Assembly (NCBI GenBank): GCA_025330725.1
Contig: JAIWND010000020.1
Coordinates: 248,001-312,000 of the forward strand
Origin: Chlamydoabsidia padenii
Lineage: Eukaryota; Mucoromycota; Mucoromycetes; Mucorales; Cunninghamellaceae
DNA: 64,000 nucleotides
Direction: 5' to 3'
A program made the position numbers and the translations under genes. The notes below the pieces were generated by a model. The model was not told the DNA's origin, made no database searches, and was given only the letters and a program-made list of their open reading frames with translations. Shown here piece by piece: positions 1 through 64,000 of the stretch (the stretch's first letter is position 1; the number at the start of each line of letters is the position of its first letter).

Positions 1-640
1 AAGAGAGCGCACATAATCTAAAGCAGAGGCAGCATCCAACCCACGAGTATGGCAATCCCAGCAGTTGATAGAACTGTACGTGGTCATTTGTTCTCCAATT
101 GACAGTCGTTTTCGTTCACCACCAGATAGACCACGTACGAATGCACTCCCCACCAAGGTGTTCACTTGTTTCGTAAGACCCAACATATTTCCCAGAAGAT
201 AAAGGATCTTGGTGACAAAATCAGTCTTGGTTTCTTCAGGTAAACGATTCCCAGGTATCTCGGTACGAAGAGCGAGTCGCAGAGTTTGCTTGATTGTAAG
301 TGTTCGATACTGGAGATCTTGTTCATAATAGCAGACTTGACCTTGGAATTCTTTGACAAACAAATCGTAATCATTCCCACCATAGCTGACCGCACCGTCG
401 ACGTCAATAAAACTGCTACGCATGTTCGCCACCACCTTAAGAAGAGAAGTACAACCTGCACCAGGTCGACGAAGAGCAATTCGCCATCCTTGCAAAAACC
501 ATTAAAAGAGTGGAGGATCGTTTTCTTGCTGTCGCTTAGCCCAATACCAAAGTATTTCTACACCTTGAATATATCACCAATAAAGTCGAATAGTGTGTGC
601 ATCAGCAACAAGACCCTAATTTGTTTTGTTTTAAAAAATT
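1..640 (-). pseudogene. PDR-type ABC transporter fragment, frameshifted at Walker A, cut by the window edge
   Basis: On the minus strand this encodes part of the first nucleotide-binding domain of a pleiotropic-drug-resistance (ABCG/PDR) exporter. Visible in order: a likely intron acceptor near 563, the lead-in KKTILHSFNGFCKDGELLF, a Walker A core RPGAGCTSLLK (about 440-470), a Q-loop-like region, the ABC signature LSGGERKRLSIGE (about 90-130) and the degenerate PDR Walker B stretch NCWDCHTRGLDAASALDY (about 15-65). The lead-in and RPGAGC lie in different frames. A few bases appear to be missing where PDR proteins have V-x-G-R-P-G. Family knowledge: these are plasma-membrane drug exporters. 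The break suggests a pseudogene, although a sequencing error at this one point would look the same. The rest of the gene lies left of the window. Confidence 0.72.
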
Positions 641-1133
641 AAAAAATAAAAAGAAGAGGAAGAAAAAAAGGCATTGTCGGTTTTAAAAATCTTTATTAAA
701 ACAAGGTTATGGTATCTATTCTAAAGTCCATCTTCGTTTCAAGGTGATGTGTCTTTACTTAGAGGGGCAACCACGAGAAGGTGTAGACTATCAGATCCAA
801 ATAACCCCAAGACCCCGATATGCTGGCTCTTTTCATCACCCATCTTCCGGCCTGGCTTATATAAAAAGACCTACAACACGCAAGCAAGTGAATGAAGCAC
901 CAATGAAAATGATACAATTACTTTGTTTATTGGCCAGATAAACAAAGTCCCTCAGAGCCCAAGTATCAGATTCACGCCTCGCATCTTCCAGAGAGAGATA
1001 CCCAGTAAAGCCAGTGTAGAAGCCAGTATATGTGTGGCCCGATCAGTCGGCGTTTGAATATATTGTCTATATTTTGGCCCTCTGACCTGCCATTCTCCCC
1101 CTCTTCTTCTCACATTATAATTTATCAACAGTC
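641..1133. other. Intergenic, no gene recognised
   Basis: AT-rich spacer between the transporter relic and the prenyltransferase gene. Short open stretches exist on both strands, but none shows family motifs or convincing splice structure. A variant of the recurrent promoter element lies at 1049-1059. Confidence 0.5.
1049..1059 (+). promoter_or_regulatory. Variant GCGGG/TTTGAA promoter element
   Basis: GGCGTTTGAAT, 75 nt upstream of the prenyltransferase ATG. It is a weak match to the consensus found before most genes here. Confidence 0.35.
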
Positions 1134-2322
1134 ATGGATCTACCTTATAGTCAACGCCCGGAATGGTCAGATGTGACACCTTTACCTCAAGATGATGGTC
1201 CCAATCCACTTGTACCTATTGCTTATTCCTCAGATTGTAAGTGGATTGTATCCCCTTCTTTGACTAATATAAACAACTTTTATAGATATTGATGCCATGG
1301 ATTACTTTCGTGCGGTGACAAAGAACAATGAAAAAACAGAACGTGTACTTGAACTGATAGGTGACATTATTGATATGAATCCTGCTCATTACACTGTATG
1401 GTAAGTTCAATAGGAGGGGGTCAACATTGTTTTAACTCTCTTTTTTTTTTTTTTAAACAAAAACAAAACAGGCGATATCGACAACAAGTACTCTTTGAAC
1501 TCGGGTCTGATCTTCAAAAGGAATTGGATTTTGTAGATACTATTGCCAGTAGTCAAGCCAAAAATTATCAAGTGTGGCATCATCGACTGGTAATTGTCGA
1601 TACACTTAACAACAGTGACCGGGAACTACCTTTTATCAACTCAATTTTGGAAGAAGATACCAAGAATTATCATGCATGGTCATACAGGTAAAGACAACCA
1701 CAAACATACCAGGTGGAATACTCATTTTATTACTAGACAATGGGTTGTGAAACGCTTCAATTTATGGAATCAAGATTTGAAATATACGGACGATATGATC
1801 TTGATGGATGTACGCAACAACTCGGCTTGGAATTATCGATACTATGTCTTGTTCTCCAACCCTGATAAACCAAGTCTAAATACTCTAAAAGAAGAAATCG
1901 AATTCACAAAAAACAAGATCCAATTGGCACCCAATAATTCTAGTGGCTGGTCTTATTTGACTGCGTAAGTACAAAATGACAACTCTTTAGGGTCACCAAC
2001 TGAACTCTATATATATATATATAGGATTATGGAGAAATTGGATCAACCATTATATACCATTGAACCCTTCTTGCATCAGTTGGTCGAAAAACAAATCGTG
2101 TCTCCTCATCTATTCTCCACATTGATTGATATGTATACTCAACAGGCCAAATTAGATGGAACCAATGTCGATCCTACTGCATTGGAGGTAAGTCTTGTGT
2201 TTATATATAAAGGATTAGACTAATGATGGTTGAAATAGTATTGTGATCGATTGGCTAATGATTTGGATCCTACAAGAAAAAAGTATTGGCAATACAAGAA
2301 ATCCATTCTCTCTGACGCATAA
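1134..2322 (+). CDS. RAM2: Protein farnesyltransferase / geranylgeranyltransferase I alpha subunit
   Basis: Alpha subunit shared by farnesyltransferase and type I geranylgeranyltransferase, which attach isoprenoids to CaaX cysteines in the cytosol. Six exons (1134-1236, 1286-1400, 1472-1687, 1737-1964, 2025-2187, 2239-2322) give 302 residues, normal for the family. Repeats of the prenyltransferase alpha (PPTA) motif are clear: [30 protein letters not shown] and [11 protein letters not shown], about 35 residues apart. The product starts [14 protein letters not shown], matching the family's N-terminal entry into the first helical hairpin. All introns have GTAAGT-like donors, and the 2025 acceptor follows a TA repeat. 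The gene converges tail to tail with the UBX gene. Identification is firm. The symbol is by homology to yeast RAM2 (FNTA in animals). Confidence 0.93.
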
Positions 2323-2532
2323 ACATGGGTAGTATTATCACTGGATAGTAATATGCTTTTATAATAAAAATCTGGTTTGACTATTTGCCTTTATATATTT
2401 ATATAGTGATGTATTGTATATTTAATTGTCAATTGTTTTATTATGTTTATTTGATTGATAATATATATATATATATATAAGAGGTGATACACTATTAACA
2501 ACTAGAGCTAAACAAAAGGTGGTTGTATACCA

Positions 2533-3337: not shown

Positions 3338-4222
3338 TTACCTGTCCTTGAATCAATGATGGCCACATAAGGATAATGTCTGACAGGATAAAGAGTCAAA
3401 TACCGTTTCCCTTCCGAGCTTTCATTTGCATACTGTAAAAAAACAAATGATTCCCGTACGATATCCTTGACAAACCCATCACTCCATAAATCCCGATTCA
3501 ACACTTGACAAGCGAATTCAGTGGGATCCTGGACATTGACCAACAACCATTTACTCTGTTCCTTTGCCGTCACTCTAGCTTCTTCGAATCCACCACGAAA
3601 CATGATATCAAAGGGAGGTCGGAATAAATCAGCTAGTCGTTTCGCTTTTGCTGTGGCGTCATCGGTTGGTTGATGGTTGGTGGTTGCTGACGAGGATGAA
3701 TCACCTTGATTAAACACCGATGGTCGCATGTCTGCTTGTCGTCCTAATAATCCACCAAAATGACCAGTGCCTGGTCCACCATAGCCATAATCTCCAGTGA
3801 GAATATCCGTTCTGGGGGCAATGGGTGCACGTACTTTGGGCCGACTTGAGGATTCTTGTTCATGTAATTGTCGGGCCAAGGCTTCATCGGAAAGTGCTGA
3901 ATCGCCGTCATCTCCAGTATCAGCATTGGTCGTTGTATCTTGTGTTGTGGACGACGAGGACTTTAATGACTTGCCACCATTTTCTAAATATAATGTCACT
4001 GCCAGATTCACATTGTTGTCCGAGACCTATTGATGATGTAAAGAAAAGAGTCAGTATCGAACAGTGGTTGAGGGTAACAAGATAAAGACTGTTCATTGTT
4101 TTGTTGGTCCAGTTGTTGTTTTTATTTTTAGATTTTACCTGCAAGTAATCGCGAGCATCTTGAGGAGTTGCTCCTGTAAAGTCACAAAAGTGGACAATGT
4201 TGGCATCAGTTTCGCTGCTCAT
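2533..4222 (-). CDS. UBA-UAS-UBX domain protein (Ubx5/UBXN7-like p97/Cdc48 cofactor)
   Basis: Predicted adaptor linking ubiquitinated substrates to Cdc48/p97. Six exons on the minus strand (4222-4139, 4026-3342, 3267-3211, 3149-3085, 3028-2687, 2628-2533) give 442 residues. Order: UBA-like N terminus (CDFTGATPQDARDYLQ then VNLAVTLYLENGG), acidic/serine linker, UAS thioredoxin-like domain (PPFDIMFRGGFEEARVTAKE through QHSPEAG), a UIM-like helix (TEEEQLHAAITASL) and a C-terminal UBX domain (IQFRMADGSRVIRRF ... VFNRQQLIDVL). Intron 2 carries a TTA microsatellite. The architecture matches UBXN7 and yeast Ubx5. I cannot separate orthologues, so no symbol is given. Confidence 0.9.
3291..3336. repeat. 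TAA/TTA trinucleotide microsatellite in a UBX-gene intron
   Basis: About fifteen uninterrupted TAA units inside intron 2 of the UBX gene. It lies next to the donor and inflates one open frame into a poly-leucine tail that is not real coding sequence. Confidence 0.9.
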
Positions 4223-4767
4223 GATAGTTGTGAATAGGTGTGGAAGAAGAAAATAGAAGAGGAAAGAAATAATTTTAGTGAACGCGTCCCATTACGAATG
4301 GCACCGATTTTATTTTTTCAAATCCCGCTCTAGGCTTGATTTTCAGGATGATGTTTCTCATCTGACTTGATGCTACTAGGTTGTATAAGTAACATTCCAT
4401 AGATAATCACTTTGACTGTTTGTCTCTCGACAGCAAACACCATCGTATGAAAAAAAAAAAGAGGCAAAGCAATATCTGATGGGTACAAGTTCTTTTGACT
4501 AGCAAAGTAGCATACTGCTTCCATTGTGTATGTATATTCTTCATTACTTTGATAAAAGTAGGCAAATAGTTTCATTTTTTGGAAAAAAAAAAAACCGTAG
4601 CGGGATTTGAATTATACAATTTGCATAAATGATCCTACTTGAACATTCAAAAAGCATTTAATGTGGCCTTCTTTTCATGGAAAGACGGGATTTGAATAGT
4701 TTGGACATTCGCATACAAGATGGTACAAACAAGTTTATTTATTAAAAACAGACTATACTAAATCAAT
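4223..4767. other. Intergenic with three promoter-element copies
   Basis: Holds three copies of the recurrent element, at 4317-4328, 4600-4612 and 4685-4697. The first serves the UBX gene. The other two face no recognised gene. A minus-strand 81-codon frame (4330-4575, start MKLFAYFYQSNEEYTY) begins 25 nt below the second copy and could be a small gene. I recognise no family and call it unsupported. Confidence 0.4.
4317..4328 (-). promoter_or_regulatory. GCGGGATTTGAA element of the UBX gene
   Basis: TTCAAATCCCGC on the plus strand, which is GCGGGATTTGAA on the coding strand, 95 nt before the start codon. Exact consensus match. Confidence 0.6.
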
Positions 4768-7936: not shown

Positions 7937-8022
7937 TTTTTTTTTTAAAAAAAAAAAGTAGTAGTGGCAATAAAGAGAGAGGACAAGTGACGATTTGAGA
8001 AAAAAAAATAAAAATAGCAAAT

Positions 8023-8038
8023 CGGGATTTGAAATCCC
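8023..8038 (-). promoter_or_regulatory. Near-palindromic promoter element of the HID1 gene
   Basis: CGGGATTTGAAATCCC: two inverted half-copies of the recurrent element sharing the TTTGAAA core, 87 nt upstream of the HID1 start. Confidence 0.6.
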
Positions 8039-8180
8039 TACGTTGATCTCAAGTGGACGAAAAGCGCGCAGTAAGGTAAACTAGTTTCAATCACTTATTA
8101 ATCATTAGTTTCGTTTCGTATGATAAAAAGATAGTTTTGTTTTTCCCTTCTTCCTTTTCTCTCTCTCTCTCTCTCAAAAG

Positions 8181-10002: not shown

Positions 10003-10015
10003 TTTAAAATCCCGC
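10003..10015 (+). promoter_or_regulatory. Promoter element of QCR9
   Basis: TTTAAAATCCCGC, 129 nt before the QCR9 ATG. C-rich strand in the gene direction. Confidence 0.55.
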
Positions 10016-12031: not shown

Positions 12032-12034
12032 ATA

Positions 12035-12047
12035 TTCAAATCCCGCT
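12035..12047 (+). promoter_or_regulatory. Promoter element of the EXS gene
   Basis: TTCAAATCCCGCT, only four bases after the HSF stop codon and 146 nt before the EXS-gene ATG. It is followed by a T21 tract. Confidence 0.6.
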
Positions 12048-12192: not shown

Positions 12193-13691
12193 ATGGAATC
12201 ATCTTGGGTACCCGGATCATATCGACCCATCATACTAATTTGTATAGGTTTATGGGGCTGGGGGCTTGACTTGTTATTACTATGCCGACATCGTATTGAT
12301 CCTTCTTATCTACTTCAACTCCATCATCATCATCCTTCCACCACCACTACTACTACTACTAATAACAATAATGACAAACACATGTACAAACCCATCTTTG
12401 TATTGGCAGGTGGTCTCTCACTTATGGTCTTGATCAATCTTTGGTTTTACCTTCAATGGGTCCTTCCTGAAGACGCTTCTTGGTTACCACTCTTGGCTTA
12501 TCTCTCTGCCATTGTCTTGATGTTATGGCCTGGCAAGACTCTTTATGTCAAGGAACGTACTCGATTTATAAGGTAAATAAAAAGGGGAGAGGGCGGGGAA
12601 TTGATTTGATTATTTGGCTGTAACATTTAATTATCAAGCTATTTTGTGTTGTCTCCAACGTAGATTGATAAGACGTGTCACATCTGTCAACTTGTTTGCC
12701 AATGTATACTTTGCTGATATCATCTTTGCTGATCTGTTGACAAGCTTCTCTAATGTACTTGGTGATATGTTTTTGACAAGTTGTATCATCTTGCCTGGGA
12801 AATCACATTTAGATTATATGGAATTAGAAACTAATACTCAAAATGCTTATTATCGTGATATTCTGGTACCATTGATCATCAGGTAAAACATGACTAGATA
12901 ACAAAAAAAAAGGGGGGGTGAATCATTGAATACTAATCATCACTTTTTTTTTTTTTTAGTCTTCCTTACTTTATACGACTACGACAATGTGTATCCGAAT
13001 ATATTGAATCTGGTGGCGACACTCGACGACATTTATTCAATGCTCTTAAATATGCATCTGCGTTCCCGGTAATCATTCTTTCGGCTGTACAAAAAAAAGC
13101 GTCGATCTATCTGACTGAAAATGGAACTATACCAGCAACATGGTGGATCAATGAATCCAACCTATTCCGACTATGGTAAAAAGTAACATGAAATTCCCCC
13201 CCCCCTATATCATACTCATCTTTATTTTTTATGGTAGGATGATGGCGGTATTTATTAATTCAATGTATTCATTCTGGTGGGATATTTCAATGGACTGGAA
13301 TTTATTACAAGTAACCTACAACACACCAGGAAAACATAATACGAACCCGACACCAATGATTCGATTCCGACGTCACCTTCACTTTTCATCTACTGCCATT
13401 TACTTTTTGGCCATGATGGCTGATTTTATCTTACGGATCACCTGGGGACTCAAATTCAGTTCACACGTCTATATCAAGCAAATCGAAGGTAATGTCTTTT
13501 TGGTCGAACTATTGGAAGTGGTGCGTCGTTGGATCTGGGTTATTTTTAGGATGGAAAGCGAATGGGTGAAACGATCGACCACAGTGGATACATCTCAACC
13601 AAATGATAGTGGTTTTAGAATGGATTTACTCGATCGGCCTAAACATCTCACTCCTATACATGAAGAAGAGGATGATCTCTTTGCTCAATAG
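12193..13691 (+). CDS. EXS-domain membrane protein (Erd1-like)
   Basis: Polytopic membrane protein with an EXS domain, the family of Erd1 and of the C-terminal part of SPX-EXS (XPR1/SYG1) phosphate exporters. Without an SPX domain it is closest in layout to Erd1, which acts in the Golgi in phosphate recycling and retention of glycosyltransferases. Exons 12193-12572, 12664-12882, 12960-13175 and 13238-13691 give 422 residues. Several hydrophobic helices are visible. EXS hallmarks are RRVTSVNLFANVYFADIIF, DMFLTSCIILPG, LPYFIRLRQCVSEYIESGG, FWWDISMDWNLL and EVVRRWIWVIFRMESEW. The open frame extends upstream of 12193 but has no ATG there and is poly-phenylalanine from a T tract, so 12193 is chosen. 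Confidence 0.85.
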
Positions 13692-14863: not shown

Positions 14864-14877
14864 GCGGGAATTCAAAA
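14864..14877 (-). promoter_or_regulatory. Promoter element of EMP24
   Basis: GCGGGAATTCAAAA, 65 nt upstream of the EMP24 start on the opposite strand sense. Confidence 0.5.
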
Positions 14878-19174: not shown

Positions 19175-20307
19175 GATAACTTTATGAATTATATGGAATA
19201 TGAAGGAGAAAAATGAAAAGAAAGCAAAGGAGAGAGAGAGAAAAAAGCGCTTAAAAGTTTTGAAGGTTGGCGGAATTTGAAAATGTGCTAGTGCAAGTGA
19301 CTTTGAACGAGTAAGAAGATTCTCGAGAGATCCATTTGAAAAGCCACTATTATATCATTTTTAGTATCCCTTATTAAAACGGAGATGGGTGGTCTTCTCC
19401 TTGTATTATGTTGTATATACACTAATTTGTTATTCACATATTGCAATGACAAGCTTATCATGTCAATATAGTTCAGTGCGATACCATCAACAGATGAAAC
19501 AATGTAATAACTGCTTGGAAGACCAAAACATCCCAGAAAATCCTTTTTGGAACAATTTACACCCCGACATTCATGCAGAAATTGAAATTGAAATCCCGCT
19601 GCTCTAACCATCATGTTAATGGGCCGTGGTATCAACTTTCTGGTATTTGACGAATCATGCAAAAAGTGAGAGAAAAAAGCGGGGTTTTAATCAACTCGGA
19701 TGCCTCAGGATGTGCACTGACATGGTACATAACTATCTTACCCCTGAGATGTGAATAGTACATATAATGTGATCTCTTTTTCAAAAAAAAAAAAAAATGG
19801 TACGATTAGATACCTTCCTCCTTAATAAGGAAGATCAGCAAATGTATTCCTCCAGGAATAGAGATGATCCATTTCCACGAAAAGGCCCGCCTCTTTTTCT
19901 ACATGATCATGCTTTTCTTAAAGGCACGACAAACTTTATATCAAGCATCAAAGTAATGTGATTGGTGAGAATTGGATTCAGGCACCAAAACATTTACCAA
20001 TGATGAACTTAATGTTTCATACATAAAAAAAAAAACATCGTCAGTTGATTGGAATGTATCTTTTTTCTATTATTCTTTCATTCTATGTTTGAATGGTACT
20101 TGATAGGTTCATGGTATCGGAGTTGAAACGACACTGTTCAGTCAAGACAGGGGAAAAACGAAAAAAAAAGCACCTGATCAATGGTTTTTTCCCAAGGTCT
20201 CTGCCACGTGTCGGAGTTCATCATTTTTATTATTATTTGAGTGGGGAATACAAAGGGGATACATACTAAAAGAACATGATCAGCTATTTACAGGAAGGAA
20301 GGGAGGT
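19175..20307. other. Intergenic, no gene recognised
   Basis: Holds the SSE1 promoter and two further copies of the recurrent element at 19588-19600 and 19679-19691 with no gene assigned. Short frames on both strands (19288-19662, 19389-19607) have no recognisable domain or splice structure. Confidence 0.5.
19270..19283 (-). promoter_or_regulatory. Promoter element of SSE1
   Basis: GCGGAATTTGAAAA, 96 nt upstream of the SSE1 start. One G is replaced by A. Confidence 0.5.
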
Positions 20308-20535: not shown

Positions 20536-21265
20536 ATTAGTGTGATTAAGATATATGTTAAAAAAAAAAAAGATGGAGAAACAAGAAAAAAGGGGCAAAA
20601 CAAAACTGTACCTTTTTTATATGCTGTCCTTAGCTTCTTTAGCACTCCCCAATGAAAAGTAATTGAGTTTCAATATTCATGTCCCGCCGAAAGAGAGAAA
20701 AAATGGCTAGTTGTCCTACTTTCTGATTATATACAAGTCTTGGTAACCTCGGATGTTAGCTTTAAAGAAGTATCACTCATATGATCTAGATGCAAAAAAG
20801 TACTAATACCCAGCACACGTTTGTTAGTCAGTACTTTTTGAAAGATATAAACATGTCAAAATAGTCTTTTTCCTCCATCGGTGTCACATTTTAATTCTAC
20901 TGATTCGACTGACATCATACAAAATAGTGATCTTCCAGTAAAAGTTGAAACTCATTCTTGTTGTTCATTTGCTGTCGAGGTAACAAATGAAACCTTAAAA
21001 AAAAGTATTATGAATGGATCATCGTCGTCAATGACATCAATGATGAAAAACCCTCGACCCTATTTGTTCGTGACATTCTAGCCTTGTTAGCATTGCAAAG
21101 TGTACTTTCGACAGATCATCTCTGAGGGGTTCCTGAAGATTACATACTTGTCGCAGGAGTCGGGGTTTGAAGTGTGAGGAGGAAAATTTTTGGGAGGGCT
21201 TGGAGGGGGATTTTTTTTATTTTATTTTGTTTCTCTTTCCCACTTTTTATATATCAAAACCAATA
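20536..21265. other. Intergenic, weak coding hints only
   Basis: Contains the guanylate kinase promoter. A plus-strand open stretch at about 20881-21081 (for example VKVETHSCCSFAVEVTNET) lacks an ATG and any domain. Confidence 0.45.
21161..21172 (+). promoter_or_regulatory. Promoter element of the guanylate kinase gene
   Basis: CGGGGTTTGAAG, 94 nt upstream of the start codon. Confidence 0.5.
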
Positions 21266-21990: not shown

Positions 21991-22417
21991 ATCTCTCTTC
22001 CCCACACACTTTATCATAGAATAGATTCCTCCCCTTTTTATTTATTAGTAGTAGTATGTCTTTTAATAAACATAAAGTGATATATGCTCTTTTTTTATTT
22101 ATATATATATATATACATGGATGGATTTACATATAGCAGATAATAAAATGACCTGATCAATTGGAGGTCTTTATTTGAAAAACAACAAGCGGGGATACCT
22201 AATCAAGGTGATTAATATGCATCTACATCTAATCCATAGTAAAGGATAGTGGGGTCGATCTAGGCAAGTCATATGTTTCTTTAGTATAGTAAAGTGGTTG
22301 TTTGCTGATACAATGCATCTCTCCTCTCAAAAAGGAATGGCGGGATTTGAAATACCATTCATAAATTTGACGGGGGGTTTCCTTCTCTTCCCTTTATTCA
22401 TCAACGAATCAAGCGAC
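21991..22417. other. Intergenic, promoter of the small membrane protein
   Basis: Guanylate kinase 3' region with a TA repeat (about 22100-22115), then a strong promoter element at 22340-22353. No coding signal. Confidence 0.5.
22340..22353 (+). promoter_or_regulatory. Promoter element of the small membrane protein gene
   Basis: GCGGGATTTGAAAT, exact consensus, 65 nt before the ATG at 22418. Confidence 0.6.
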
Positions 22418-26499: not shown

Positions 26500-26919
26500 G
26501 GAAGTCGGAGCTGGAATATGCGGGCAAGGCGGGTAGTTTCAAATGGGACATCTTTTTTATGCTGAAAGGATAGATTCGATGGCACTCAACAAGGTATCCA
26601 TAAGGCTGAGTCTGTTGTTGACGAAAAAAAAAAAAAAAAAAGGAAGGTTTTCCCCCATTGTTTTAGTGTGTAGCATGATACTCAATCATACCACCCATTT
26701 AGTATTTGGAAATAATAAATTGTTGATCTCTTTTGTTGCCCTATGACAATGTGTGATCTCTTCTTCCCCCCCAAAAAAACATGATCATTTTGGTATCATC
26801 TGCCTGTGGTCTGTTCAGTGCAACAATGGATGATTTTTAAACCCCGCATATCGTCTATTTCTTACCTCCATTCTTTTTTTTTTCTCTTTCCTTCTTTTTT
26901 CTTCTTCTATACCTTTACC
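26380..26919. other. Intergenic, divergent promoter region
   Basis: An A29-31 run near 26468-26497, an A18 run near 26623-26641, a gapped copy of the element near 26528 for the WD40 gene and a good copy at 26834-26847 for the WWE-like gene. No coding signal. Confidence 0.5.
26834..26847 (+). promoter_or_regulatory. Promoter element of the WWE-like gene
   Basis: TTTTTAAACCCCGC, 73 nt before the ATG at 26920, followed by T- and C/T-rich sequence. Confidence 0.5.
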
Positions 26920-27435: not shown

Positions 27436-29007
27436 TCTCCCCTTCCTCTCTCTTCCCTTTGTATCTATAACTCTCTATTGCCACTATATCCCCCTTCATT
27501 ATAATAGTTCTGTACTTTTTTTTTTTAACTCTTCCCTTTACTACATTAGGTTATGTTGTTGTGTTTATATTTGACTTGAAATAAAGAATAGTTAACTTGT
27601 AATAAAGAAAAATGTGATCATACAAAAAAGACTCTCTCCATGTGCCACGTTAGAAAAAAAAAAAAAAAACTTGAAAAAAAAAAAAAAACTTCCCTGCATA
27701 AAAAAAAAAGGCGGTTATAAAGAATGTGAACCTATGATTCATTGTGATAATTACATAGTTCATCATTCTTTCAAGACTTTTCGATCGGTTGCGATGTGTG
27801 ATTCATGAGAGCATTCACGATGGTTTACCACGGGATTACATTTTGATCAAATGATCACCTTTTTTTTTTTTTTTTTCAAACTCATCCTCAAAGAGAGGAG
27901 TTTGAATCCCCATCATCGGCTCTACAGCTCAGAATGGAGAAACGACATCAAATGACGCAGAGATTAACGTCGATTTGGGCACATCACAGGATCTCCAAGA
28001 TACCCGTCTCCTTGGTCCTAGTAATTCAATTCCCGCCGCGGCATTACTATTCCGAGGGCCCCTATTTAATACGAGGGGGTGTCACAAAAGTTGGGTTTCA
28101 ACATCTGTGGAGCAAAAAAAAAAAAAAAAAAAATCTTTTTTTTTACGCGCGTTGACATGTCTCCTTTAGTATACTCATCATGTTGCTTAAGCTAGGGAAA
28201 TTGTCAAAAATGACATAGGGAGTCCTTATTTACTGGAGAGAATGAATCTACCACTTTTTTGGACAACAGCACAAGACACAGACATAGGGGTAGCAAGTTC
28301 AATATTACCTTTTGATCCTTCACTCCAAGGTCGGGGTTGGAATAGTTTTGCATGAATTCAGGGTTTGAATCGACACTGTGACGTTTTTAAACAACAATTG
28401 AAATTCTATCCGAACGTTCAAGTCTAGAATGGGTGGTTTTAGAAATGACAGTGACTTCAAGGAGCTAAACAAAAAGAACGTGTAATTTGAAAATGGGGAG
28501 CGAGATAGTTCTTTCGTTTTTCATTTCCTTGTTCTCTTTATCCTCGTTCCTCTCCTTTTTCATTTAACTCGTGTTTGTCCCTGACACTTTATTATAGTGC
28601 ATATTCCCTACTAAACAAGTCAATGATTTGATCACATCACAATAATTGACACAATAGTTGAATTAGATATATATTCTATTTTGCTTAAATTGATATTTTG
28701 CCTCGCTTAACAAGTCTCATTTTGGTTCGCATGAACTTGGTCTTTTTCATTCTAAATCAGACTTGTCTCCTTAACCTCGGTAAGGACCAATAATAGTTGA
28801 CATCATTTCTATCTAATGATGTTCTATTCTACAATCATGTTTTTTTACAAGTATAAATAAAACCCTTTTGAATAAAATCAAATTCTTCTTCTCTCTTCAC
28901 CTTGGACGTTTATCGCCTTTTTCGAAATTAAAACCCCGATTCTATTTTTTTTTTTTTTTTTTTTATCTTAAAAGAAAGCGGGACTCCCACACTTTTTTTT
29001 TTTTTTC
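27436..29007. other. 1.57 kb intergenic, no gene recognised
   Basis: Contains several poly-A runs (27655-27687, 28114-28132), element copies at 27901-27912 and 28024-28037 without a gene, and the C2H2 promoter at 28927-28940. Lysine-rich frames are products of the A runs. Confidence 0.5.
28927..28940 (+). promoter_or_regulatory. Promoter element of the C2H2 gene
   Basis: ATTAAAACCCCGAT, 68 nt before the ATG, followed by a T22 tract. Confidence 0.5.
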
Positions 29008-39697: not shown

Positions 39698-41554
39698 CTA
39701 GGTGCCAGCCAAAGAGGAAGCTTCCCACCAATTCGTTTCTTCTTGCTCAGCACTTTGCTGAAGAATAGGTTGAGTCTCCGCCTGATGCACGCACACCACT
39801 GATGTCTTGTCCAAATGTCGTTTCCAACACCGAGTAGAGCAAAACCTCACCCGACGGACCACGGCAGGATGACCACCATAACTTTTCACTTGAACCGAGG
39901 TTAACCATTCGTTCACAAAGGGTTGTTGACATGTAGCGCACCATCGATGTGTGCACAGATCATTGGCGAGATGAGGAGGAATCATGTGAAGTGGTACGTT
40001 GAGTTTGGATTGTAATATCACCCGGGTGGCCAATTCACGAAGCGAATGGAGTATGGATACATTGTCGCCGTCCGTGTCGATCAGGGTGCAAGCTTGTCCG
40101 TCCTTTTCTTCTTCGGCCATCAAGAGGGATCGTGACACGTCAGAGTCATCAGACAGCGGTGGACTGATGGTTTGTCTTGATCCTTGTACATTTAATTGTT
40201 GTGCCAAAAGGGACAATTCTCGATCAATCACCGCATCATCGTCATCCTCGTGTAATAAGAGTGGTATAGTGGAGGAAGTGCTTGGTGTGGGTATCGGGGT
40301 TGCCAAGTATGTGGTAGTGGGTATAGATAATGGACTTGTTGCAAAATTACATGGTGATGAATCATTTTGTTGAGATGGTGATGATCGTATTGATAAGCAT
40401 CCATTACCTTGAGGACCACATTGATGATGTAAAAGTCGAGAGGAAGAAGAGGAAGAGGAAGAGGTCGAGGTCGAAGAAGACGAAGAGGTCATCATTGGTA
40501 ACGCCCGCATCGTCATTCGTTTCAACAATTGAGCATACGCATCCGATGGACCATGACCAGGCCGAGTCATAGGATTACCCGTGATCAATAACGTTGTCGT
40601 ATTCATCCTTTCCAGTATATCCGCCGGCATGATACATAACAAGTTTTCCGAAATATCAAATAATTCCAAGTTGACCAATTCCACCAACGTTGCCGGCAAA
40701 GTGGTCAAATGATTCTTGCTGACATTCAACGTTTTCAATCCACCACATCCACCAATACTGATCGGCAGCGACTCGAGTTGGTTCCGCGACACATTGAGAT
40801 GGACCAAGGAGGGGATCGACATGTTCCCAGGCAACGCACACAGTTGGTTACACGACACATCCAGTTCCTCTAATCGGGGCATCTCCACAATCGAATCCGG
40901 TATCCTTGTCAGACAATTACCACCATATACTGACCCCAGCTGTAAATGACGCATGTGTTTCCACCGAGAGATATTAGGAGTCAAATAATCAATGCGATTG
41001 CCAGCAACCGACAGAGTGACGAGGCCAGGGAGTTGGAGGGGCAGTTGATCCGGTATGGTAACGAGTTGATTTTGAGCCACCAGTAACACCTCTAATCCAG
41101 TCAGGTGGTAGAGTTCGGTAGGTAGTCGAGTCAGCAGATTGGACGATGCGTTGAGAGTGCGTAGGTGGACCAACTGGGTGATTTCGTCGGGGAGAGACGA
41201 TAGCTTGTTGCGAGAGATATCCAATTCCACTAGACTCGTGAACACTTCCACCGATACGAGTTGTTGTCCCAGTTCCACTGTCGTAAGGTGTTTGCGTCGT
41301 AACATGAGAAGGCCATCTTTGGAGAGCAAGTTGTGTTGTTTCCTCCGAATCTTGACTTGGTGTTGTTGTTCCCTTTTGCATTGTCGTTTGACTTGTCGAA
41401 TGTGGCCTCCCAACGGGGCAAGAGAAGGGTCATCAATACAGGATTCAATATCGACAATGGGTGAATGAGAAGGAAGCCATGGTTCAACGTGATCATGTCT
41501 GTCGGGAGGAAGTACACCTGTTAAGAGTTTCCCACCCAGTAGATTGGGTAACAT
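39698..41554 (-). CDS. Leucine-rich-repeat protein with C-terminal Cys-pair motif
   Basis: Single-exon gene, 618 residues from the ATG at 41554. The open frame continues 63 codons farther but passes through the promoter element and A/T tracts, so the inner start is preferred. About ten LRRs occupy residues 70-320, for example LVELDISRNKLSSLPDEIT, LRTLNASSNLLTRLPTELY and LVHLNVSRNQLESLPISIGG, of the SHOC2/plant PIRL Ras-group type. A low-complexity Ser/Thr linker follows. The C terminus has WCATCQQPF and RVRFCSTRCWKRH, a possible zinc-binding pair of CxxC/CxxxC. Likely a scaffold in signalling; no specific partner can be inferred. Confidence 0.82.
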   Translation of the reverse strand: MLPNLLGGKLLTGVLPPDRHDHVEPWLPSHSPIVDIESCIDDPSLAPLGGHIRQVKRQCKREQQHQVKIRRKQHNLLSKDGLLMLRRKHLTTVELGQQLVSVEVFTSLVELDISRNKLSSLPDEITQLVHLRTLNASSNLLTRLPTELYHLTGLEVLLVAQNQLVTIPDQLPLQLPGLVTLSVAGNRIDYLTPNISRWKHMRHLQLGSVYGGNCLTRIPDSIVEMPRLEELDVSCNQLCALPGNMSIPSLVHLNVSRNQLESLPISIGGCGGLKTLNVSKNHLTTLPATLVELVNLELFDISENLLCIMPADILERMNTTTLLITGNPMTRPGHGPSDAYAQLLKRMTMRALPMMTSSSSSTSTSSSSSSSSRLLHHQCGPQGNGCLSIRSSPSQQNDSSPCNFATSPLSIPTTTYLATPIPTPSTSSTIPLLLHEDDDDAVIDRELSLLAQQLNVQGSRQTISPPLSDDSDVSRSLLMAEEEKDGQACTLIDTDGDNVSILHSLRELATRVILQSKLNVPLHMIPPHLANDLCTHRWCATCQQPFVNEWLTSVQVKSYGGHPAVVRRVRFCSTRCWKRHLDKTSVVCVHQAETQPILQQSAEQEETNWWEASSLAGT

Positions 41555-41654: not shown

Positions 41655-41667
41655 GCGGGCTTTAAAT
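41655..41667 (-). promoter_or_regulatory. Promoter element of the LRR gene
   Basis: GCGGGCTTTAAAT, 101 nt upstream of the chosen start. Confidence 0.5.
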
Positions 41668-42566: not shown

Positions 42567-42581
42567 TTTTTGAAACTCCGG
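42567..42581 (+). promoter_or_regulatory. Promoter element of the Ert1-like gene
   Basis: TTTTTGAAACTCCGG, 83 nt before the ATG, followed by T-rich and CT-repeat sequence. Confidence 0.5.
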
Positions 42582-46799: not shown

Positions 46800-47238
46800 T
46801 GTGAAACTTTTGGTATATTTGGATATATGTGATGTGAATGAAAGAAGAGAAAAGAAAGAAAGGGCGATAAGGGCGTTTTTTTTTTTTTTTTTGTGGGGAG
46901 GGCTGTGAGAAATCGAAAAAATCAAACCCCGTTCGCCATGCTGCTTACTTGATGACACACAATCGGCGTAAAAATAAAATAAAAAAAAGTGTTGCAACAT
47001 CGCAAGTGGCAAAAAAACAATCTATCGATTACACAAACAGAGATGATATCCCTTATGATTTATGAGGGGGGTGAGTATAGAATATCCACCTAGTGCGCAG
47101 CATGTATAAGGGAGAAGATGGGATAAACAGGTGATCGGGTAGTATAAAGTTCCCATCTCTTCTTTTTTATTTATTTTTTTCTTCCTTCTTCTTCTTCTTC
47201 AAGAGTAGTCTTTCCAACTCATGGCCATCTAAACTGAT
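46800..47238. other. Divergent intergenic
   Basis: DAK1 promoter with the element at 46921-46932, an A/T homopolymer at 46877-46893 and a CT/TTC-rich tract before the cyclin gene. No gene seen. Confidence 0.5.
46921..46932 (-). promoter_or_regulatory. Promoter element of DAK1
   Basis: ATCAAACCCCGT, 122 nt upstream of the DAK1 start. Confidence 0.45.
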
Positions 47239-54465: not shown

Positions 54466-54479
54466 GCGGAATTTGAAAT
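54466..54479 (-). promoter_or_regulatory. Promoter element of the trehalose phosphatase gene
   Basis: GCGGAATTTGAAAT, 119 nt upstream of the start; same variant as at SSE1. Confidence 0.5.
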
Positions 54480-54824: not shown

Positions 54825-54838
54825 GCGGGATTTAAAAT
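54825..54838 (+). promoter_or_regulatory. Promoter element of the MRG gene
   Basis: GCGGGATTTAAAAT, 175 nt before the ATG. Confidence 0.5.
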
Positions 54839-56872: not shown

Positions 56873-57307
56873 ATTATAGTCCCCCTTGTACATAATACAC
56901 AGTCATCTTGCATAATAAAGAATACCCTTCGAAATAAAAAAAACATCTTTTTGCTCATGATATCACATTCTCGGTATATCCTACATGAATCGTTTATGCC
57001 AGACCAGACGTCTCGGATCCGCATGAAACATATTAAACCCCCGCCATAGATAAGGTATTTACTGTTTATGGTATATTTTAAAAGTGTTCTTTTTCTTCTA
57101 GCAATGTTGAAAATAGTTTCATTCCTCATTTTTATCAATCTGTATTTCTAGAAGATTTTCAAACATTAAGTATGAAGTGATGCATTTTTTTTTCCTGCCA
57201 ACATCCCGAATCAATCGGGGTTTAAACATGTCGACGTCTGTGGGAAAAAAAGGCGGCCTTTTTTTTTTTTTTTTTCTTGTCTACCTTCTTTCTGTTCTCC
57301 CACACTC
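56873..57307. other. Intergenic
   Basis: An element-like AAACCCCCGCC near 57034-57046 and a good copy at 57216-57228 for the protease gene. T18 tract at 57259-57276. No gene. Confidence 0.5.
57216..57228 (+). promoter_or_regulatory. Promoter element of the M28 protease gene
   Basis: CGGGGTTTAAACA, 80 nt before the ATG. Confidence 0.5.
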
Positions 57308-60164
57308 ATGACATCTGTAACAGAAAACACTCCATTGTTGGCAACTCGTCAAGATGAGGAACCACCCATTGTCCGACCTATTCGTCATCCATGGAATGCC
57401 TACTTTTGGATCTTTGGCAGTCTTGCTCTCTTGGTATCCTTTATCTATAACTATCGATTGACATTACCACGACCTTTATCACAAGTCGAAGCCATGGAGC
57501 AAGACGACTTCTCCGGTCTGCACAGTTACAACCAATATCTCTCTCACTTTAATACCCCTCATTCTGCCAATCAACAAGGGAATACCGAAATGTATCATTG
57601 GATCAGTAACGAATTGGAACAGTTTGCAAAGGTCGCTCAACAAAATGATATCAAGGTCGATCTTATCACGAACGATACTACTCGTTTGGTGGTTAAACGG
57701 GACAGGTACAGTCAAGGTAAGTCAACCTTTTGCTGTGGCTATCCATCTTGACATTCTTTTTTTTTAATGGGTAGGTGAATACTGGTATGTGGAATCACGT
57801 AACGTCATGATTAGGTTACATGGACAACAAGGGTCTATTGACAATGCTCTTCTTGTCAACGCTCACTATGGTAATTGTCTCTTCTCCTACACATTTGACT
57901 TTTTACTCACTTTTTTCTTTTTTAATAGACAGTGTATCCACTAGCCATGGTGTCACGGATAACGGGATGGGAACAGCCACAGCATTGGAATTATTAAACT
58001 ACTTTAGCCAACATCCACCTCGAAACACAATGATCTTTTTATTCAACAACTATGAAGAAGGTGGTCTGATCGGTGCTCAATCCTTTATCCATCATCCTTG
58101 GTTTTCCACCATCAAACTCTTTGTCAATCTTGGTAAGACAAATGGGGTCTCAAACAAAATAAGGTTGATGTTTTAACTTGTTTTAAAAGAGGGAACGGGT
58201 AGTGGTGGTCGAAGTCTTTTGTTTAGAAGTAGTAACCTCGATGCTGTCAAGAAATTGGCTTCGTCTCGGGCTCATCTCTTACATGGATCTCCTTTCGGCA
58301 ATGACATGCTCAAGTCTAAATTGATACGAAGGTAAAATAGAATGGATTTATCATTATCCCCTTTATTGACACACTTTTCTTTCATAGTGACACGGATTAC
58401 ACGACATTTACTGGAAAAGGAGTTCCCGGTTTGGACATTGCGTTTTATACACCCAGGGCACATTATCATACACAACGGGATGACCTGGTCCATACCACGC
58501 CTTCTTCCCTTCAATACATGGGACAAATGGCACTAGGTGTGGTGCGGGCCCTGGACGAGGATGATATTGACGATCCACCAATGGAAAAGTTTATCTATTT
58601 TGATATTCTCGGTCGCATCATGCTCGTTTACTCTTTTACGACAAGTCAGGCGATGAATATCTTTATGCTTGTCAGTACGCCTTTGGTCGCCTTGATCTGG
58701 TTGGCGATTCTTTCCCGTGATCATGACAACAAGAAGAAATTCTGGTTGGAGGCGTTGATGACGTTTAGTCAGGGTCTGGCTGCTGTCTTGATTGCCATCG
58801 TGCTTATTATTGGTGTCGATGCATTGGCCATCTATGCCCTCTTACAATTGAAACCCTTGGTAAGATATCTCTAGTAGGTGTGATTGATGAAACTCATGTT
58901 TTTTTTTTATGTGTGTGTATAGTTGACTTATGGTAATGCTTATATTGTTGCCTTTTATCTGGTATTGGCCTCTCTCTTGGGTTTGACTCTTTCACAATTA
59001 GTATTGACGAGAATTAAACGTATGCATCGTGCTCTTCTTCAATTAAATACCTCATTATATGGATTGGTCGCGGTATGGTGGGGGATACTTGTGGGTGCGA
59101 CGGTGATGGGATCCACCGAGGTTGCAGGTGGTTATTTCGCCATCTTTTTTTTGACAAGTGGGATCGCTGCCATCATTGTGTCTCATCTCTTGGCCATGTT
59201 TTACCTCAAGGCGAAACTCTTTGGTGTGTTTGTTGTACAAATGGCATTACCTGTCATTCTCATGACTGAATTTTGCTTCTTGTCTCTGGATGCCCTTCGT
59301 CATACCACTGCCGATGGTACCCCTGAACTCTCTAGTAAGTATATATTTATATATATATATATATATCTGTAAACTCTTGACTAACACAAACCCCCTTGCA
59401 TAGTTTACGTGATTGTTGCCACACCTATTATTCTCATCACATTGCATTTGTTACCATGGATCCATGTCTCGGGCGACAAGCGCCAACCAGTGGGTGTGTT
59501 TACTTTAGCTCTGGTAGTGGTCTTCATCAGCTGTCTCCTCCTCAGTCCTTTTAACCGACAAAACTCACCTAATCGAATCGTGTTTTATCAAGAATATGAT
59601 CAGATCGAATCTACTGCCACCGTGCGCTTGGTAACGGGTCGTGGACTGGATAACACCCTGGCACACTACCTCACTGCCGAAGAAGCGGCCACTCTGTGGT
59701 GCGACCAAGACGACTACCAAATGACCTGTACTTATCAAACCAAAGATGTGCCCATGTACGCCCATCATCGAGACGAAACCAAGCTGGACATTAACGATCA
59801 TGACGGCCAACGGCTCCAAATCACCACCACTGTCCAGCATAGTCATTTGTGTCAACTCAAGATGAATACACCCATCCTAAAGGCCCAAGTCAATGGTGAA
59901 CCTATCCTTCCCAATGGTGATGACATGCAAGCGATCATGACGTATGTAAACCAAGCCGGGCATCCCGTCCGATGGGACATTGAAGTGGAAAAAGACCATC
60001 ACAACTTGACGGTACAATTATCTTGTCTCTATGACGATTGGACTCGTGGTGAATTGCCGGCATTTACTAATCTTCGTAATCGATTGCCTGAAACTCAAGC
60101 ATTGACTATCAAGGGTGGTACTGGTTTGGCCATGGTCCATTATCCTGTAGTTTATATTCAATAG
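57308..60164 (+). CDS. PFF1: Vacuolar membrane zinc protease, M28 family (Pff1-like)
   Basis: Multispanning metallopeptidase predicted in the vacuole membrane. Seven exons (57308-57716, 57775-57870, 57930-58132, 58190-58331, 58388-58860, 58923-59334, 59404-60164) give 831 residues. An N-terminal helix (YFWIFGSLALLVSFIY) precedes the M28 core with zinc ligands: NAHYDSVSTSHGVTDNGMG, LFNNYEEGGLIGAQSF, FVNLEGTGSGGRSLLF, TDYTTFTGKGVPGLDIAF and a distal histidine in HYHTQRDDLVHTT. About eight membrane segments follow (residues about 390-640), then a lumenal C-terminal domain ending VHYPVVYIQ. The exon 3/4 acceptor is AAG. Length is slightly below the yeast protein. All catalytic ligands appear present. 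Confidence 0.92.
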
Positions 60165-60235: not shown

Positions 60236-60250
60236 TTTTAAAACGCCGCC
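60236..60250 (+). promoter_or_regulatory. Promoter element of LST8
   Basis: TTTTAAAACGCCGCC, 73 nt before the ATG. It lies within 90 nt of the protease stop codon. Confidence 0.45.
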
Positions 60251-60322: not shown

Positions 60323-61754
60323 ATGTCTGACAGCTCTCCATCTTCTTCACAAGAACAACAAAACTATGCGCAAATGCAACAATATCAACAATCTCTACAA
60401 AATGATAGTCATTCTGTGATTCTAGTGACCGCAGGCTATGATAATACTATTCGGTTTTGGGAAGCACTTTCTGGGATCTGTTCTCGTACTATCCAACATG
60501 CTGACTCGGTAACTTTATGATAAAAAAAACCCTTTATCCTGTAATTAACTGGTTTTATATAGCAAGTCAATAGGTTATGTATCTCCCCTGACAAGACTAT
60601 TTTGGCAGCAGCAGGTAAAAACCCCTCTTCCCATCATTGACCTCACCTTCATTGTTTGTTTGTTTTTTTGGTAGGTAATCATAATGTCCGACTTTACGAT
60701 ATCAGTAGCTCCAATGGTAATCCTGTAAGTAAAAAAAAAAAATAAAACTTCAAGATGTCGCTTTTCTTACCCTCTGTCTAGTTGGTTGTGTTTGGTGAAC
60801 ACACGGGTAATATTACGGCGACGGGATTCCATGGGGAAGGACGGTGGATGTTTACGGCCAGTGAAGATGGACATTTGAAAATCTGGGATACACGATCAGG
60901 AAGGAATCCTGTCTTGACTCGGAATTTCGATAATGGGGCGCCCATTAATGATGCAGTGATGCATGCCAATCAAGGTGAATTGATTACCTGTGATCAAAAT
61001 GGGGTGGTGAAAATCTGGGATTTGACAGCACATGCTTGTACTCATCAACTGGTAAGTTCCAGGGGAAAAGAACCATGACATGGTAATCTTTTTCTTTTTA
61101 TTATTATTACTTTATAGGTCCCTGAAGAAGGCGTTCCTTTACGGTCTGTTAGTATTGCGTCGGATGGATCCATGCTGGTGGCGGTAAACAACAAGGTAAT
61201 CCCTCTCTCTCTCTCTCTCTTTTCTCTCTTTCTGTCTAACCTTTTTATATTAGGGATATTGTTATGTATGGAAAATGTCAAATAGTACATCTGAACTATC
61301 TGATGTGGAACCACTATTCAAATGGCAGGCTCATAATGATTATATTTTACGATGTGTTCTAAGTCCTGATACAAAGTAAGTAATAATATATAAAAAAAGC
61401 TGCGTTTCGGATCAAGACTCATCTCTCTTTATCAAGGCTTTTAGCCACATGCTCTGCTGATAAAACCATCAAGATTTGGAACGCTGAAAAGAAATTCAAG
61501 TTGGAAATGACACTTACTGGTCATCAACGATGGGTATGGGATTGTGCCTTTTCCGCCGATTCAGCCTACTTGGTTTCAGGTAAAACATGGAAAAAGAGGG
61601 AAATGTGAACTAACGATTGTGTGATATAGCCTCATCGGATCATGTATCAAGATTATGGGAATTATCTCAAGGGGAAACGATTAGACAGTACAATGGACAT
61701 AACAAGGCAGCTGTATGTGTGGCTTTGAATGATTTATCGGTCGGTTACTCATAG
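60323..61754 (+). CDS. LST8: TOR complex subunit Lst8 (WD40)
   Basis: G-beta-like subunit of TORC1 and TORC2 that stabilises the TOR kinase. Eight exons (60323-60508, 60563-60614, 60675-60724, 60782-61051, 61118-61195, 61254-61375, 61437-61579, 61630-61754) give 341 residues. Typical blades: [120 protein letters not shown] and [20 protein letters not shown]. The open frame begins 15 codons earlier with GTG; the ATG at 60323 is the first start. About 25 extra Ser/Gln-rich residues precede the usual Lst8 N terminus. Intron 6 uses an AAG acceptor. Confidence 0.94.
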
Positions 61755-62089: not shown

Positions 62090-62692
62090 TTAAGCCTTCT
62101 TAGCAGCTTGAGCAGCCTTCTTGGATTCCTTGGACTTGGCAATAGCAGCTTGACGAGCAGCAGCACGGGCATCAGGCTTTTGGTTACGCTTGGCACGGAT
62201 AGCATCCCAAGAGGCACCAGCAATAGCACGTTCATGCTTGACAGTACGACGAGATCGCTTCTTGGCCACTTCTTCGGTAACACCCTTCTTGTTCAAACGA
62301 CGGTAAATGGTGGTCCATCGGATCTTGCGAGGGTTCAAGCGTTGGAGAAAGTAAGATTCGGCCTTACCATTGATGAATCGGAAGGTCTACATGATGATGA
62401 TGATAAAAAAAATGAGTGTCATGTTCTTTGTTACATCCCTGGTCATGTTGTCTGCATTCCCCCCCCTTTTTTTTTTTCCTGTTCATAATACGTACTCTAT
62501 AAATAAAAAGATAATTAGTGAGCGGCATGTCATTGTATTGTGTCATTGGCATTACCTGCTGTCAATACGGACGTAAGTCTTACCACGAGCAGGGTAGATC
62601 TTGAAACCTGAGAAAGCGCAAATCTCGAGCCTATTATAAAAATCGATTAGTATGGGTGGATGGATGGATGGATGGATGGCTACTTGCTTCAT
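62090..62692 (-). CDS. RPL24: 60S ribosomal protein eL24
   Basis: Large-subunit ribosomal protein. Exon 1 is ATGAA (62692-62688). A GC-AG intron follows (donor GCAAGT at 62687), then exon 62630-62556 coding [20 protein letters not shown], and the last exon 62386-62090 coding [54 protein letters not shown] and a basic Ala/Lys tail. The block order matches yeast and human eL24 (FSG-KIYPG, DS/G-x-FRF, NPR-I-WT-L-RR). Joining the last two exons with one intron leaves the frame one base short. An A at 62500, flanked by TTTATAG and GTACGT, restores it (125 residues). A 4-nt exon GGAT is a poorer alternative. Confidence 0.93.
62500..62500 (-). other. Candidate 1-nt microexon of RPL24
   Basis: On the minus strand the base A lies between a complete acceptor (TTTATTTATAG) and a donor (GTACGTATT). 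Including it turns AGC AG + ACC into AGC AGA ACC, so Asp-Ser-Arg-Thr-Phe-Arg-Phe reads through as in other eL24 proteins. Confidence 0.5.
62631..62687 (-). other. GC-AG intron 1 of RPL24
   Basis: The donor GCAAGT after ATGAA joined to G CTC GAG ATT TGC gives M-K-L-E-I-C, matching the universal MKxEhC start of eL24. No GT donor gives this. The intron also carries a TGGA tetranucleotide repeat (about 62663-62679). Confidence 0.82.
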
Positions 62693-62767
62693 CTTTGTCA
62701 ATGGATAATGAGGGAGAGGAGGGAAGAAAAAAAATTGAATGGGGTGCTTACAAGTAGGTGCCGCTAA

Positions 62768-62781
62768 GCGGTGTTTGAAAT
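62768..62781 (+). promoter_or_regulatory. Shared element in the RPL24/FRG1 bidirectional promoter
   Basis: GCGGTGTTTGAAAT, 76 nt from the RPL24 start and 65 nt from the FRG1 start. The two ATGs are only 153 nt apart, and this is the only copy between them. Confidence 0.55.
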
Positions 62782-62845
62782 AACGTCCATTAGGTGTAGG
62801 GCGCACTTTTTTCTCTTCTTTCCTTCACTTTTTTTTTTTTTTACA

Positions 62846-63881
62846 ATGCCTGCTGATAAACCTCCAAAGAAAGGGAAACTCTCTTTCAAAGGTGAAAAGA
62901 AGGAAAAGTAAGTAGGATGAAGGCAACCCCTAATAAAAGGAATCTAAACCATCCCATCTTATTAGGAAAAGGAAAAGAAAGAATCGTGATGACGATGAAT
63001 CCCGCGACCAAGCCCAACTCCTTGAAGATGGTAAAACCACCCCAAACATGATGCTTTAAAACCTATACTAAAACAGTTATATATAGGCTGGGTTCGTGTG
63101 GATGCTCTGGACGATCTTGTCGGCCCTATCTATATCACCCACCCAAGCGATCCCACCATTTGTCTCACTGTCGATGAAAACGATCGATTTTTCGCCTACC
63201 CACTCGCCGACCACATGTCTACTTCCGAACCCATGATTGTCAACCAAGTGTTTGTCGGCTCACGACTGTTGGGGTCCACCAGTCGATTCACCTTTAAATC
63301 GTATCGCGGCAAGTACCTCAGCAGTGACAAGATTGGCGTCACCAGTTGTGATCGGGAAGCCATTAGTGGATTGGAAGAATGGGAACCGGTGGTCACGGAC
63401 GCGGGGGTGGCATTTCAAAGTACGCATGGTACATTCCTCATGGTCGATCAAGTCGCTGACGGTGGTAAAAAAAAAAGTACATGATGCTGAATGGGATAGG
63501 GAACTCACCACTTTGTTGTTGTAGGGTTTAAAATTCGGGCGGACGCTGATGATATTGGGTTTTGTGAAACATTCCGAGTGTATTGTCAGGCTAAATTCAA
63601 GAACAAGCGGAAAAAGGAAACCAAGGCGAAATTCGATGCGGATCAGGCGGAATTGGATAATGTGTAAGTAACCAGGGGAGGGTCTCTTAGTGGTAATATA
63701 CTCACTCGCTCTCTCTCGCTCTCTTTTAAATAGGAAGAAGAATCAATCTTGGGGTGGAGGGAAATTACATATGACGCGTGAAGACTCTAAACGACTCAAG
63801 AAGGCTAAATCCGAAGGACGAATCAATGAAGCCATGTTGGATCGACGGGCTTTGATGAAGGCGGATCGATATTGTAAATAG
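62846..63881 (+). CDS. FRG1: FRG1-like actin-bundling / RNA-associated protein
   Basis: Homologue of human FRG1, a nucleolar and spliceosome-associated beta-trefoil (fascin-like) protein. Five exons (62846-62907, 62966-63030, 63087-63464, 63525-63663, 63734-63881) give 263 residues. A lysine-rich N terminus (KPPKKGKLSFKGEKKEKKRK) is followed by the trefoil domain: DGWVRVDALDDLVGPIYITH, FKSYRGKYLSSDKIGVTSCD, AISGLEEWEPVVTD, FQSTHGTFLMVDQVADGGFK and IGFCETFRVYCQAKFKNKRK. The C-terminal helix has EDSKRLKKAKSEGRINEAML and DRRALMKADRYCK. Length and motifs match the family (about 258 residues in human). Confidence 0.93.
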
Positions 63882-64000
63882 GATAGTAATAGTTTAGCGG
63901 TTGTCTCATTTATATGAAAATAAAAATAGGGGCGGTTATGTATACAACATTGTACCATGTATAGGGTTGGACTGGGATTATCCGTCTATAATCTGCTGTA

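Follow-up and report, generated by a model that had tools for sequence, protein, structure and literature searches.

Genes of varied function in the mucoralean fungus Chlamydoabsidia padenii are preceded by a short bipartite DNA element, counted here as GCGGGRTTTRAAW, that is concentrated at one distance from predicted start codons, occurs in either orientation and is shared by closely spaced divergent genes. The element came to notice in a 64,000-nucleotide stretch of contig JAIWND010000020.1 (positions 248,001 to 312,000; assembly GCA_025330725.1), referred to below as the window, where a first-pass annotation had described it as a recurrent element upstream of most genes. The analysis reported here establishes that the element is real, strong and promoter-associated. 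Most likely, it is a site of the type bound by the general regulatory factors (GRFs) of yeast, with a new sequence.

Whole-genome counts cover 34,228,448 bases in 95 contigs, with the same pattern reversed as the control. Genes were predicted by a purpose-written, unvalidated small hidden Markov model gene finder in a 214-kb sample consisting of the window and 50 kb each of contigs C1, C56 and C8, which yielded 85 genes of at least 80 amino acids (aa), 84 of them with a predicted start. Counts with mismatches in intergenic, intron and exon sequence, and the dinucleotide shuffles set against them, come from an earlier stage comprising the first 164 kb of this sample, when the median intron length in the gene models was 70 nucleotides (nt). 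A refined position weight matrix (PWM), trained on intergenic matches from the 214-kb sample, finds 184 intergenic sites scoring 9 bits or more there, about 20 of which may have arisen by chance, judging by the exon rate of 0.27/kb. Because the matrix was trained on the same sample, significance is claimed from the first-pass pattern, from shuffles and from other contigs, and the test of position is the only one that uses PWM sites. The contigs unseen in the first pass amount to 170 kb of C1, C56, C8 and C67, with 60 genes. Functions were assigned using Pfam with one exon apiece from 20 of the 29 window genes, of which 16 matched.

In the whole genome, GCGGGRTTTRAAW has 1,332 exact forward and 1,349 reverse matches, 2,681 altogether, against 1 and 0 for the reversed pattern; the variant with T as its first letter occurs 1,032 + 986 = 2,018 times, and its reversed control 1 + 1 = 2 times. 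In the window there are 10 exact copies; allowing one mismatch raises the count to 30, and allowing two raises it to 57. With up to one mismatch, 61 matches fall in intergenic sequence, compared with a mean of 0.87 in 30 shuffles, whereas introns contain 2 (0.10 in shuffles) and exons 2 (0.60 in shuffles). A k-mer count made without any seed leads to the same element: the top intergenic 10-mer, CGGGATTTGA, occurs 27 times against 0.09 expected under a third-order model.

Alignment of the 184 PWM sites gives the consensus RKCGGgRtTTrAAWW, with the core CGG-N3-TTNAA; the nearly invariant letters are CGG and, after a gap of three, TT, any one letter and AA. The two halves are rigidly spaced. In the intergenic part of the 214-kb sample, CGGG and TTTRAA separated by one letter occur 51 times against 0.6 expected, and among the 12 other gaps in the range 0 to 12, a gap of 2 is found 4 times (0.7 expected) and the rest 0 times or once each. 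In the looser form, CGG followed after three letters by TTNAA is found 130 times against 8.7 expected, and after two letters 39 times against 9.3, an excess that, by our reading, matches what copies of the TTTAAA type would give. The gap-plus-one form has 226 matches genome-wide; among the 100 matches listed, we read 92 as in register and 8 as out of it. Upstream of HID1, at 8022-8040 of the window, overlapping inverted copies make up the near-palindrome TCGGGATTTGAAATCCCTA.

The position of the element relative to predicted start codons is sharply defined. PWM sites reach a density of 8.53/kb at 60-129 nt upstream of predicted ATGs (50 site-gene pairs), compared with 0.99/kb at 0-59 nt, 1.78/kb at 130-299 nt and 2.76/kb at 300-699 nt (p = 5e-11 for 60-129 versus 130-699 nt). 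The same peak appears with the first-pass pattern in the unseen contigs: with at most one mismatch, the density is 3.10/kb at 60-129 nt and 0.83/kb at 130-699 nt (13 of 60 genes, p = 5e-4), and with at most two it is 5.71 and 1.49/kb (21 of 60 genes, p = 2e-6), the 20-kb part of C67 adding no site to the peak. In the window, this pattern with up to two mismatches places a site in the peak for 15 of 29 genes. As to the claim that the element precedes most genes, 46 of the 84 have a site in the zone 50-135 nt upstream by the refined matrix. A looser criterion brings the figure to 63 of 84 within 250 nt of the start, yet 34 of 81 genes also have a site within 250 nt after the stop. When only the nearest 150 nt are counted, 50 of 84 genes have a site before the start and 12 of 81 have one beyond the stop.

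Orientation is free. The zone 50-140 nt upstream contains 46 sites, 5 of them common to two genes; the other 41 comprise 17 on the same strand as the gene and 24 on the opposite strand (p = 0.35), a result about placement, not activity. An apparent difference in distance between same- and opposite-strand sites (medians of 101 and 90 nt, p = 0.03) was discarded, as it weakens to 100 and 91.5 nt (p = 0.10) when shared sites are removed. Considering genes of 80 aa or more, each of the five divergent pairs whose start codons are less than 200 nt apart has exactly one site, located 71-121 nt from both ATGs. Ten pairs are less than 450 nt apart, and nine of these, all but the pair at 4643/5075 of C1, have a site 71-121 nt from one ATG or both.

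The side of the site that faces the gene is marked by a C/T tract. Over 51 site-gene pairs, the C+T fraction from the site toward the gene is 0.59 and 0.56 over 40 nt and then 0.78 and 0.76 over the next 40 nt; on the side away from the gene it is 0.43-0.49, so that the rise at the 40-nt mark, 0.56 to 0.78, occurs only on the gene side, in agreement with the tract described in the first pass. Genes with and without a site do not differ in coding strength, G+C content at third codon positions or length (p = 0.27, 0.61 and 0.38, respectively). Their leaders do differ in C/T content, 0.75 with a site versus 0.625 without (p = 8e-5), which suggests that the predicted starts of some genes without a site may be wrong. 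The genes concerned have no common function, as had been noted: they include HID1, EXS, HSP70-type, guanylate kinase, C2H2, leucine-rich repeat (LRR) and ribosomal L24e genes, among others.

The sites at the 18 promoters originally cited in the window are as follows (gene names in quotation marks are first-pass assignments).

4316..4328, reverse strand: exact site, 93 nt before the ATG at 4222 (reverse) of the "UBX" gene
8022..8034, forward strand: one-mismatch site, 85 nt before the HID1 ATG at 7936 (reverse); overlaps a weaker inverted copy at 8028-8040
10003..10015, reverse strand: one-mismatch site, 128 nt before a predicted 66-aa two-exon gene at 10144 (forward), "QCR9"
12034..12046, reverse strand: exact site, 146 nt before the EXS-family ATG at 12193 (forward)
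14864..14876, forward strand: two-mismatch site, 64 nt before the ATG at 14799 (reverse)
19270..19282, forward strand: one-mismatch site, 95 nt before the HSP70-family ATG at 19174 (reverse), "SSE1"
21160..21172, forward strand: two-mismatch site, 93 nt before the guanylate kinase ATG at 21266 (forward)
22340..22352, forward strand: exact site, 65 nt before the first-pass ATG at 22418 (forward), a gene not predicted by the gene finder
26835..26847, reverse strand: exact site, 72 nt before the ATG at 26920 (forward)
28927..28939, reverse strand: two-mismatch site, 68 nt before the C2H2 gene ATG at 29008 (forward)
41655..41667, forward strand: one-mismatch site, 100 nt before the LRR gene ATG at 41554 (reverse)
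42569..42581, reverse strand: three-mismatch site, 13.8 bits by PWM, 82 nt before the ATG at 42664 (forward)
46920..46932, reverse strand: two-mismatch site, 236 nt before the ATG at 46683 (reverse) of a predicted Dak1-domain gene
54466..54478, forward strand: one-mismatch site, 118 nt before the ATG at 54347 (reverse)
54825..54837, forward strand: exact site, 175 nt before the ATG at 55013 (forward)
57215..57227, forward strand: two-mismatch site, 80 nt before the ATG at 57308 (forward)
60237..60249, reverse strand: two-mismatch site, 73 nt before the ATG at 60323 (forward)
62768..62780, forward strand: single one-mismatch site in the middle of the 153-nt divergent gap between "RPL24" and "FRG1", 75 nt from the L24e ATG at 62692 (reverse) and 65 nt from the ATG at 62846 (forward)

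For 16 of the 17 distances given in the first pass, a site is found within 2 nt, but the site nearest to DAK1 lies at 236 nt, not 122 nt, from the ATG predicted here. Eleven of the 18 promoters carry the exact or one-mismatch copy that had been ascribed to all of them; six, DAK1 included, have two mismatches and the ERT1-like gene has three. Short genes escape the gene finder, as illustrated by the unpredicted gene at 22418 and by the 66-aa gene at 10144, which falls below the 80-aa cut.

From the observed placement, rigid spacing, free orientation and sharing by divergent genes, we consider that the element is probably recognized by a single abundant protein that binds DNA sequence-specifically and nucleates promoters in the manner of yeast GRFs. 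One putative protein would bind the bipartite site and hold a nucleosome-depleted gap open at promoters. Transcription would begin at or close to the C/T tract, on one side of the site or on both depending on where a tract is present, and direction would be set by the tract rather than by the element itself. As a guess at the class of this protein, a Zn2Cys6 factor would suit a CGG triplet extended by AT-rich letters; the 39-position, Cys-rich Zn_clus profile has 46 domain matches in the genome. Zn2Cys6 sites with CGG and a fixed AT-rich extension include those of yeast Stb5 and Oaf1, and the element is likewise asymmetric, with a CGG triplet at a fixed distance from AT-rich letters. We know of no Zn2Cys6 member that recognizes its particular letter pattern.

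Several observations weigh against the GRF-type reading. One is the number of sites away from predicted starts, which the first-pass interpretation did not foresee: for 138 of the 184 intergenic sites, and for 23 of the 27 strongest (at least 20 bits), no predicted start lies 50-135 nt away. Tail-to-tail gaps have 2.00 sites/kb, compared with 2.72 in divergent and 2.69 in tandem gaps, and the difference widens in gaps shorter than 800 nt (1.57/kb versus 3.91 and 3.46/kb in the others). The 20-kb test region of C67 contains 7 intergenic sites, and none of its 5 genes has one in the zone (1 of 7 at a 40-aa cut). Elsewhere on C1, where 30 exact sites were fetched and 4 overlapping the C1 sample were dropped, only 7 of the remaining 26 have a predicted ATG 50-135 nt away, against 9.5% of intergenic positions as background (p = 0.009). 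Finally, the overall intergenic density predicts 2.3 sites for the 895 nt of the five short divergent gaps, and three of the five sites there are weak (10.7-13.4 bits). Some of the off-zone sites may be true promoters, belonging to short genes or perhaps to short first exons overlooked by the gene models.

These same features, namely about 2 sites/kb even in tail-to-tail gaps, the distance of most of the strongest sites from predicted ATGs and the C67 region with its sites but none before its five genes, would favor a general intergenic element, involved in boundary or insulator function, replication or repair, for which closeness to promoters is secondary. We regard this as unlikely, given the sharp peak 60-129 nt upstream of ATGs, the presence of one central site in each of the five short divergent gaps and the rarity of sites within 150 nt of stops (12 of 81) compared with starts (50 of 84). 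The preferred place before ATGs, followed by a C/T tract, would also suit a strict core-promoter element read by TBP/TFIIB-like factors, in which a GC-rich half resembling a B recognition element adjoins a TATA-like TTTRAAWW half. This is improbable. A core-promoter element would be expected in a fixed orientation relative to the gene, but both orientations occur, a single site stands between two divergent genes, and TTTGAA, the commonest core of the element, is a poor TATA box. Furthermore, TATAWA is present within 150 nt in 13 of the 46 genes with a site and in 14 of the 38 without, that is, about equally often, and the element is accordingly no substitute for a TATA box. The first-pass reading of a general core-promoter or nucleosome-free-region element is partly supported, in that the element is general, concentrates at one distance from ATGs and has a C/T tract on its gene side. 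The strict core-promoter sense is unsupported because of the two orientations and the one copy between close divergent genes.

Another alternative is a composite of the DREAM type, in which E2F/DP would occupy the GCGGG half and a CXC protein like LIN54 the TTTRAA half, shorter than the cell cycle-dependent element/cell cycle genes homology region (CDE/CHR) of animals and in far wider use. The likeness is evident in the GC-rich, E2F-like half rigidly spaced beside TTTRAA, which fits the LIN54 consensus TTYRAA (PMC4974476); a figure legend of the same paper gives a model with a four-nucleotide CDE-CHR spacer. Hybrid E2F-CHR (E2F-LIN54) elements are described for the DREAM complexes of worm and human (PMC3093354, PMC5683655). 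Moreover, the genome has six E2F/DP (PF02319) domain matches above the cut-off, on C7, C56, C19, C67, C1 and C8. The spacer of the element is, however, 2 after GCGG, not 4, and the four-nucleotide spacing between CDE (SGCGG) and CHR is found at 0 sites (0.1 expected) in the intergenic part of the 214-kb sample, where E2F sites of the form TTTSSCGC are not in excess either (3 versus 2.9 expected). TTTGAA outside the element is depleted, at 126 against 158 expected. The CHR letters are looser than LIN54 would allow: LIN54 requires T at position 6, which 45 of the 184 sites lack, and a purine at position 9, where 38 have C or T, about 20 of the 184 being possibly due to chance. In the E2F core, the G at position 0 is present in only 90 of the 184 sites, with T in 67. 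The targets are not generally cell-cycle genes. No profile match to TCR/CXC (LIN54), DIRP (LIN9) or pRb was obtained in the genome, which is weak evidence, because no eukaryotic positive control matched these profiles either and absence is not proven; the miss of CXC is slightly more telling, as Zn_clus, a similar short Cys-rich family, gives 46 matches. In view of the spacing, the letters and the gene content, a fused E2F and CHR site was rejected, and DREAM-type recognition in general is doubtful.

Absence of pRb has been stated for zygomycetes in general (PMC4862756), and with this the six E2F/DP matches alongside no match to the pRb B domain agree. It is conceivable, if rather improbable, that in this Mucorales lineage, after the loss of pRb, an ancestral E2F-MuvB composite was taken over and compacted into one general promoter element that now nucleates transcription, in both directions, for a large share of all genes.

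An origin from RNA polymerase III promoters or repeats, whether as the remnant of a B box from tRNA-like elements or as a dispersed repeat, is highly improbable and already largely refuted. The reverse complement of the element, TTCAAATCCCGC, resembles the 3' half of a tRNA B box, and 26 of the 184 site neighborhoods have another similar stretch in the sample, but 158 have none, the B-box consensus GGTTCRANTCC is found 0 times (0.2 expected), and ARAGORN in bacterial mode detected no tRNA in the 214 kb. In the C8 sample, at about 329.9-330.7 and 339.2-339.9 kb, site neighborhoods have several similar stretches in the sample, possibly representing a dispersed repeat that also carries the element. 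Among known signals considered as identities for the element in the intergenic sequence, the Reb1 site CGGGTAA (2 versus 3.6 expected), CCAAT (151 versus 219) and the MluI cell cycle box (8 versus 3.7) were rejected, as was TATA, since TATAWA is 2.7-fold enriched (557 versus 204) but does not track the element.

Among known systems, the closest counterparts of the GRF-type site favored here are the sites of Reb1, Abf1, Cbf1 and Rsc3/30 in budding yeasts, which are likewise short, lie upstream of the starts of unrelated genes and occur in both orientations. The sequence of the element differs, the Reb1 site being unenriched; a single element stands before about half of the sampled genes (46 of 84). 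GRF sites are nucleosome-depleted in vivo, bound by proteins that exclude or remove nucleosomes, as the element would be on this reading. It stands out in how large a share of genes it precedes, in its concentration ahead of the start region and in its two-sided placement. The GRF repertoire turns over between fungal lineages and among yeasts (PMC2897762). A literature search on the sequence itself and on promoter motifs, start sites and chromatin in Mucorales recovered no account of the element, which can be called undescribed only provisionally because most subscription papers lie outside the search; the same search also returned nothing that describes how Mucorales promoters are built or names a dominant element in them. 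PMC11258239 deals with N6-methyladenine motifs, not with this element. A single searchable element before roughly half of the sampled genes would aid the prediction of transcription start sites, gene annotation and the design of expression vectors; it would also offer a handle on the promoter factor of Mucorales and add a case to GRF turnover in fungi.

A second recurrent intergenic word, TGCATGAA (TTCATGCA), occurs 27 times against 3.5 expected in the window, C1, C56 and C8; among the copies listed, none lies 60-129 nt before a predicted ATG. Within the window, the EXS-family gene at 12193-13691 was broken into two models by the gene finder, and both halves match PF03124. Viral and GTDB contigs, each searched with one protein, yielded no Mucorales DNA. 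Consistent with a Mucorales fungus close to Absidia, the protein encoded by the single-exon LRR gene (39698-41554) is nearest to those of Absidia cylindrospora (60%) and Absidia repens (58%), followed by Hesseltinella, Radiomyces, Mucor and other Mucorales.

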